Origin: Burkholderiales bacterium
GTDB lineage: Bacteria; Pseudomonadota; Gammaproteobacteria; Burkholderiales; Burkholderiaceae_D
NCBI GenBank assembly: GCA_003136595.1
Contig: PLEY01000187.1
Coordinates: 27,758-68,939, forward strand
DNA length: 41,182 nucleotides
Reading direction: 5' to 3'
The notes beneath the pieces are model-generated. The model was given only the letters and a program-made list of their open reading frames with translations, made no database searches and had not been told where the DNA came from. Positions 38,922-41,182 of this stretch are shown piece by piece (position 1 is the first letter of the stretch; every line of letters starts with the position of its first letter). Position numbers and translations under genes: made by a program.

Positions 38922-40376
38922 CTAGTCGAGCGCCACGATCTTGCCCGGATTCAGCAGGTTCTTCGGATCGAAGGCCCGCTTTAGCGAGCGCATCAGGTCG
39001 AGCGCATCCTCACCATGCTCCTCCCTCAGGAAGTCCATCTTGTGCAGGCCCACGCCGTGCTCGCCGGTGCAGGTTCCGTCCATCTGGATGGCGCGCGAGA
39101 CCATGCGCTGGTTGATGGCCTCGGCTTCCTCGTGATCCTCGGGCCGCTCGGGATCGACGAGCAGCATCACATGGTAGTTGCCGTCGCCGACGTGTCCGAC
39201 GATCATCGAGGGCAGGCGCGAGGCATCAAGTTCCTCGGTGGTCGTGCGGATGCTCTCGGCCAGGCGGGAAATCGGCACGCACACGTCGGTGGTGATGGCG
39301 CGTGTGCCGGCTTTCATCTGCAGTCCGGCGAAATAGGCATTGTGGCGCGCCGTCCAGAGCTTCGTGCGGTCCTCGGGATTGGTGGCCCACTGGAAGTCCA
39401 TGCCCCCGAATTCCTGGGTGATGGCCTGGACCCCTTCGGCCTGCTCGCGTACGCCGGCCGGAGAGCCGTGGAATTCGAAGAGCAGCAAGGGGGTCTCGTG
39501 CAGGCCGAGCTTGCTGTGCGCGTTCAGGGCCTTCACGCATGCGGCGTCGAGAAACTCGACACGGGCGACCGGGATGCCCATCTGGATCGTGGCAATCACG
39601 CTCTCGACAGCCGCCTCGACGCTCGGAAAGTTGCAAACGGCCGCCGAGATCGCCTCCGGCTGCGGATAGAGCCGCACCGTGACCTCGGTGATGATGCCAA
39701 GCGTCCCCTCGCTGCCTACGAAGAGGCGCGTCAGATCGTAGCCCGCCGACGACTTGCGCGCCCGCCGCGCAGTCCTGACGACCTTGCCGGCGGCGGTGAC
39801 CACCGTGAGCGCGATCACGTTCTCACGCATCGTCCCATAGCGTACGGCGTTGGTGCCCGAGGCGCGGGTCGCGCTCATGCCGCCAAGGGAAGCGTCGGCA
39901 CCGGGGTCGATCGGAAAGAAGAGGCCCGTGTCCTTGATGGCCTGATTGAGTTGCTTGCGGGTGACGCCCGCCTCGACGGTTGCGGTCAGATCCTCCGGAT
40001 TGATCGCAAGGATGGCGCTCATCTGCGACACGTCCAGACTGATCCCTCCGGTCACGGCGAGCAGATGACCCTCGAGGGAGGAGCCCGATCCGTAGGCAAT
40101 GAGGGGTACCTCATAGGTGTCGCAGAGTTGCATGGTGGCGACCACGTCATCGGTGCTGCGGGCGAAGACGACCGCATCGGGGAGCATCGGCTGGTAGGCC
40201 GATTCGTCACGCCCGTGATGCTCGCGCACGGCAAGCTTGGTGGAGAAACGCTCGCCGAAGCGCTCTGCGAGGGCGGCGAGGAAGGCTTCCGGAAGCGGCC
40301 GCCTGAGGGCGACGGTGTCTGGTGCGGGATGGTTCACGGAGTGGTCTCCCCGGACCCGGGTTGGCGCCGGATCCAT
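38922..40376 (-). CDS. FAD-binding oxidase, D-lactate dehydrogenase/GlcD-type paralogue
   Basis: [68 protein letters not shown]. Confidence 0.9.
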
Positions 40377-40495: not shown

Positions 40496-40509
40496 TTGAT
40501 CTGGGTCAA
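40496..40509 (+). promoter_or_regulatory. FNR/Anr-type binding site
   Basis: TTGAT-CTGG-GTCAA, near-consensus to TTGAT-N4-ATCAA; 57 nt upstream of the bchE-like ATG. Confidence 0.65.
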
Positions 40510-40566
40510 AACTGGCACAGCTCGCGCCAGATAGCCTTCCCTTCACCAGCCCAGCGGAGAAGCGGT

Positions 40567-40650
40567 ATGCGTATCTTGCTCGTGCACCCCAACCATCATT
40601 CGGGTGGGGCCGAAATCGCGGGAAACTGGCCGCCGGCATGGGTGGTGTGA
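40567..40650 (+). pseudogene. bchE: Truncated bchE-like 5' fragment (27 codons)
   Basis: [26 protein letters not shown] matches the BchE N-terminus as I recall it; reading stops at TGA formed at the IS boundary. Confidence 0.65.
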
Positions 40651-40955
40651 ATTTGCGGGCACATAGAGCCATTCGAGTTGCGGCCAGATGAGGCCACCTG
40701 ATTTGCGGCCAGATGAGGCCAGTGGAATGAGGTTGTAGCGGTCTTGGACTTTCTGATCGCGTTACCTTTCGGGATTTCCCCGGGGGAGCGCGATGGCATA
40801 CAGGAGGTTCGAGATGTTCGAAATAAGGCAGGTCATTCAGCGCCTGAGGCTTGGCGAATCCACCCGGCAGATCAGTCGATCCCGGCACCTGGGGCGAGCG
40901 ACGGTGGCATCGATTCACGCGGTGGCGCCACGCTTGGACCTGCGCCGGGAGCGGC
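40646..40955 (+). mobile_element. istA: IS21-family insertion sequence, truncated left end with istA 5' fragment
   Basis: IstA-like start at 40793: MAYRRFEMFEIRQVIQRLRLGESTRQISRSRHLGRATVASI; multiple terminal repeats upstream; reading frame lost after about 40927. Right boundary approximate. Confidence 0.75.
40653..40721. repeat. Three IS21-end repeats at exact 25-bp spacing
   Basis: TTGCGGGCACATAGAGCCA (40653), TTGCGGCCAGATGAGGCCA (40678), TTGCGGCCAGATGAGGCCA (40703). Confidence 0.85.
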
Positions 40956-40959
40956 ACCT

Positions 40960-41168
40960 TTCTCGCCTCTGGAGGGCAGCCGGTGCGGCTTGGCATCGCT
41001 GGCAGTCCCCTGTGCCGCGATCTCGTCGCCCAGGGTCCAGCCTGCGACTACTACGCGGCAGCCTTCGAGGTTCTCTTCAGGACGCTGGTCCATCCCAACG
41101 CACGGCTCAGAGAGACGCTATGCGAGGCCAGTGGGGCGCGTGGCTGCGTCTTCGAGATCAGCTGGTAG
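40960..41168 (+). pseudogene. bchJ: 3' fragment of a V4R-domain protein, probably bchJ
   Basis: In-frame GQPVRLGIAGSPLCRDLVAQGPACDYYAAAFEVLFRTLVHPNARLRETLCEASGARGCVFEISW* resembles a V4R/BchJ C-terminus; no N-terminal part present. Confidence 0.55.
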
Positions 41169-41182
41169 GGCCCTGGCCCTGG

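Follow-up and report, generated by a model that had tools for sequence, protein, structure and literature searches.

The structure at the right end of the analysed DNA can be read, with a probability of roughly 0.9, as a dead bchE-bchJ operon, inactivated by insertion of an IS21-type element and a subsequent deletion, in a lineage that has kept AcsF and most of the photosynthesis pathway. BchE forms ring E of bacteriochlorophyll without oxygen, and AcsF performs the same step with oxygen. The window, i.e. the whole stretch of 41,182 nucleotides analysed (G000:C115:27758-68939), originates from a draft genome (196 contigs, 94.36% complete). Its right end lies directly at an NN assembly gap, which begins 14 bp past the stop codon of bchJ. 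The scar is composed of five elements, in the following order: an FNR box, the bchE 5′ stub, an IS21 left end, a 5′ fragment of istA and a 3′ fragment of bchJ (Table 1).

Table 1. Features of the bchEJ scar and of the neighbouring gene (positions in the window)
Feature	Position	Strand	Basis and remarks
GlcD-like gene for an FAD-linked oxidase, transcribed divergently from the scar	38922..40376	-	Pfam FAD-oxidase_C and FAD_binding_4; sister-genome synteny
FNR-type box TTGATCTGGGTCAA	40496..40509	+	single occurrence in the window, against 0.01 expected; putative relic of an oxygen-regulated bchE promoter
bchE 5′ stub, 26 codons and one base	40567..40645	+	TIGR02026 positions 1-32; 24/26 residues as in Rubrivivax BchE
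IS21-type left end, three terminal repeats 25 bp apart	40646..40813	+	layout and TGTGAATTT start as in the intact IS21 of L097
istA 5′ fragment, about 37 codons, ends at the junction	40814..40925	+	alignment to IstA residues 1-40
istA/bchJ deletion junction, placed to within a few bases	40922..40929	.	IstA-like until 'IHAVA', BchJ-like from 'RHAWT'
bchJ 3′ end: about 80 codons (of ~200) plus the stop codon	40926..41168	+	TIGR02019, V4R, alignment with 12 BchJ proteins

Fragments of bchE, bchJ and an IS21-type element

The 26-codon BchE-like N-terminus proposed in the earlier note was recovered in a whole-genome search with the BchE model TIGR02026, which matched the stub exactly at the locus of the ATG at 40567 (E 2.6e-10). 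The stub shares 85-92% identity with the first 26 residues of the BchE proteins of 12 intact loci, i.e. those of a Rubrivivax MAG (L048, JADCGP010000003.1) and 11 other genomes of the order, which constituted our comparison set. It represents a BchE pseudogene: the equivalog model is matched over the retained stretch, only 26 of about 550-580 codons are left, and the B12-binding/radical-SAM remainder required for a working enzyme is absent.

The V4R-type C-terminus had likewise been assigned correctly to BchJ. The fragment corresponds to positions 111-188 of TIGR02019 (E 7.9e-19), matches Pfam V4R (E 9.6e-13), and aligns with intact BchJ proteins through to the stop codon at 41168. Its score of 68.2 bits is below the curated cut-off of 74.3 bits set for the complete protein of ~200 aa, and model positions 1-110 are missing. 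Matches of the two fragments to non-photosynthesis families had been named in the earlier note as grounds for abandoning its reading. A generic radical-SAM/V4R origin was rejected, since the stub fits the BchE model and the 12 BchE proteins, and the tail scores best with the BchJ model among those of NCBIfam.

A search of the 16 kb surrounding the scar (L004) yielded no additional bchE, bchJ, istA or istB sequence. The genome contains a single other BchE-like match (101 bits vs. a cut-off of 481); this protein is of the general radical-SAM type, and the sister species has one like it. A profile search revealed no second true BchE in this genome, a draft in which an intact copy could sit in a gap.

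At 38 positions that are invariant in the relatives, the stub and the tail together show 2 departures, and working genes span 0-5. The stub differs from its relatives in 13-18 codons, only 2-4 of which change the residue. Since the fragments still obey the constraints of working genes, the inactivation is probably recent in comparison with the divergence from the bchE-bearing relatives.

As the earlier note had described, the bchE stub runs directly into an IS21-type end: TGTGAATTTGCGG, at 40646, is the start of such an element. It is followed by TGCGG repeats at 40654, 40679 and 40704, with a spacing of exactly 25. The repeat layout and the text preceding istA are those of an intact IS21 of Paraburkholderia (L097). 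This IS, located on a plasmid of Paraburkholderia fungorum, has in common with the scar element (i) the 25-bp repeat spacing, (ii) the TGTGAATTT start and (iii) the context of the istA start. It differs in being intact, whereas the scar retains only the left ~280 bp, without istB and without the right end. By its terminal repeated motifs and istA start the scar element belongs to IS21, of which, lacking istB and the right end, it is a remnant.

The istA fragment comprises 40 aligned IstA residues from the start codon (E 4.8e-6). The 38-residue fragment gave no match to NCBIfam models, and its identity is based on alignment. The frame is open from the ATG at 40814 to the junction, i.e. istA is truncated without a frame shift. 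The earlier note was thus right in placing a truncated IS21 between the two stubs; its suggestions that both IS ends persist and that the istA frame was lost did not hold, as only the left end is present and istA reads through to the break without interruption. With the right IS end missing, no target-site duplication can be recognised.

The scar copy of the IS is unique in the genome, the best other matches being 72-78% identical over 78-134 bp. Two more relic IS21 left ends, showing 72-78% identity to that of the scar, were observed at L005:2531-2608 (G000:C189:29530-29607; 78% identical to the scar end) and L006:2441-2574 (G000:C147:32440-32573). No istA was recognised beside either of them. 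The 20-bp IS repeat had no match among viral contigs, nor did the scar IS DNA have one among plasmids.

Intact bchEJ operons and the proposed history of the scar

The earlier note had described bchE and bchJ as neighbours in the photosynthesis clusters of purple bacteria such as Rhodobacter, and they are adjacent throughout the comparison set, where bchJ follows bchE directly and on the same strand in 12/12 intact loci. Measured from the ATG of bchE to the stop codon of bchJ, these loci span 2246-2410 bp, the scar 602 bp. Roughly 2 kb of the operon must be missing, since about 280 of the remaining 602 bp are IS sequence.

The upstream region of the operon also appears to have survived. TTGATCTGGGTCAA, a perfect match to the FNR box TTGATNNNNRTCAA, starts 71 bp upstream of the ATG of the stub. 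The exact box TTGAYNNNNRTCAA is located 77-91 bp upstream of bchE in half of the intact loci (6/12), and at 71-98 bp the other six have a box that deviates by one or two bases. The bchE promoter of Rhodobacter sphaeroides is bound and activated by FnrL, and substitutions in its TCAA half-site at -57 cut the activity by about 90% (PMC4263372). From this similarity we infer that the box of the scar is a surviving relic of the bchE promoter, which would have acted in the same way as in R. sphaeroides.

A search of the genome contigs with the BchJ tail identified a single locus, L048 of the Rubrivivax MAG. This locus resembles the scar in gene order, protein identity, the presence of an upstream FNR-like box, and the location of acsF elsewhere in the genome. 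Similarly, in Rhodoferax antarcticus the bchEJ genes lie apart from the main cluster, which contains acsF (PMC5374385). Both genes are intact in these two organisms, whereas the scar has only their 5′ and 3′ ends around the IS21 piece. The earlier note had described the scar as that of a photosynthesis gene cluster. By comparison with the Rubrivivax MAG and R. antarcticus, bchEJ probably formed an operon of its own, separate from the main cluster.

The proposed history has two steps, for which we infer the order insertion first, deletion second. The IS21 element would have inserted at codon 27 of bchE, i.e. after codon 26. A later single deletion, extending from inside istA to inside bchJ, would have taken away about 2 kb of the IS, i.e. 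all of the element to the right of the retained piece, and about 2 kb of the operon, comprising bchE from the insertion site onwards and roughly the first 60% of bchJ. An IS21 insertion followed by an adjacent deletion had been postulated in the earlier note, and the identity and order of the fragments, with an IS21 piece between them, support it in outline. The deletion does not start at the IS end, the right part of the element being gone as well; it need not, therefore, have been made by the IS.

Distribution of BchE and AcsF in the family

Reaction-centre genes were detected in 23 of the 394 family genomes. AcsF is encoded in 21 of these 23, and the two without it are drafts. True BchE was found in 0/394; at E 1e-60 or better only one match was obtained, from a non-phototroph and 41% identical. 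Two BchE hits, both in genomes with no reaction-centre match, were set aside: that of G143 has a different start (MKNRVLLINPPHTAIG) and was not retained at the E 1e-60 threshold vs. true BchE, and that of G127 is only 41% identical to true BchE. In the phototrophic family drafts G256 and G237, neither AcsF nor BchE was detected, probably as a result of assembly gaps. Among the 23 phototrophic genomes of the family, a bchEJ remnant was seen in this one only.

The genes flanking the scar on both sides are syntenic with those of a sister genome (G010), with 75-80% identity; for the GlcD-like gene, DNA of 80% identity occupies the equivalent place. The corresponding interval of the sister genome contains glcD, MAPEG-like, OsmC-like and metalloprotease-like genes and pduO (gene names assigned by eye). 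MAPEG-like and OsmC-like genes are located at L046:5011-6009, where the genome under study has the bchEJ scar. No trace of bchEJ was found in the sister species at the place equivalent to the scar. This species possesses pufL, pufM and acsF, and lacks bchE.

It is possible, though doubtful, that bchEJ was gained by transfer and not inherited from the family ancestor, and was inactivated afterwards, a variant compatible with our main explanation. It would agree with the absence of BchE from all other sampled family members, phototrophs included, and with the presence of MAPEG-like and OsmC-like genes but no bchEJ trace at the site in the sister species. Repeated loss from a common ancestor, however, explains these data equally well, and a tree able to decide would need longer fragments. 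Returning to the inactivated operon as such, we tentatively suggest that BchE may have been lost late and separately within the family, that one genus may have kept or regained an FNR-controlled bchEJ until recently, and that the switch to the oxygen-dependent enzyme could have occurred several times in parallel.

Photosynthesis genes kept in the genome

The genome encodes a full-length, stop-free AcsF (479 bits vs. a cut-off of 192.5), as well as PufL, BchY and BchZ, all of full length and above the curated cut-offs. The genes bchH, bchB, bchN, bchF, bchL, bchM, bchG and puhA were matched without internal stops, some of them being cut by contig ends. PufM was not found in the assembly; the contig carrying pufL ends 185 bp past this gene, so that an absence cannot be claimed. 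The gene set is that of an aerobic anoxygenic phototroph, with PufL and AcsF present, BchE absent, and PufM beyond the contig end.

The anaerobic cyclase is gone, the aerobic cyclase is kept, and phototrophy has not been lost. The earlier note had left two alternatives, loss of phototrophy or loss of the anaerobic cyclase only, with AcsF retained; the presence of AcsF, PufL, BchY, BchZ and other bch genes decides in favour of the second. It is highly improbable that the lineage is losing phototrophy altogether, with bchEJ merely the first genes to go. The broken bchE and bchJ and the failure to find pufM would be expected in that case, but the four proteins named above are complete, the other pathway genes are free of internal stops, the pufL contig simply stops, and the sister species, also devoid of bchE, has pufL, pufM and acsF.

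Judged by its gene content, the lineage most likely depends on oxygen for making bacteriochlorophyll, like aerobic anoxygenic phototrophs. Most of the latter are without bchEJ in the cluster or the genome, which has been tied to life with oxygen, and retention of AcsF in the absence of bchEJ is typical of them (review PMC12654162). The genome resembles the described aerobic anoxygenic phototrophs (PMC12654162; Bradyrhizobium PGC2, PMC10569730) in keeping its photosynthesis genes while bchE and bchJ are non-functional. They are described as lacking bchE/bchJ, whereas this genome still shows what is left of both genes and how they were probably lost. The loss of bchEJ in such bacteria is therefore already known; the novelty is that a fairly recent fossil of it can be read. 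Elsewhere apparent mostly from the missing genes alone, this loss can be followed here along its route from the promoter, the start codon, the IS21 end and the bchJ end. We found no comparable physical remnant of bchEJ reported in the papers searched, which came mostly from outside subscription journals. Intact or half-broken bchEJ, which would help to date the change of lifestyle, should be sought among the relatives of this species.

An assembly error or contamination, with intact bchEJ existing in the organism, is very unlikely: the draft does contain NN gaps, one of them close to the bchJ stop codon, but inspection of region 40500-41182 revealed zero N, nothing else in the genome is nearly identical to the IS, which makes a false join at a repeat unlikely, both flanks are syntenic with the sister genome, and no family genome encodes true BchE.

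Two-base NN runs were observed as fillers in the assembly at L004:4941-4942 and in L098 (G000:C111). On C111, a pucC-like gene appeared to be frame-shifted, but the position of the shift coincides with the NN filler, and it was rejected. To the right of the gap adjoining the scar, an open frame (L004:5365-6090) contains a zinc-protease-like HELGH motif, which is conserved in the sister genome.
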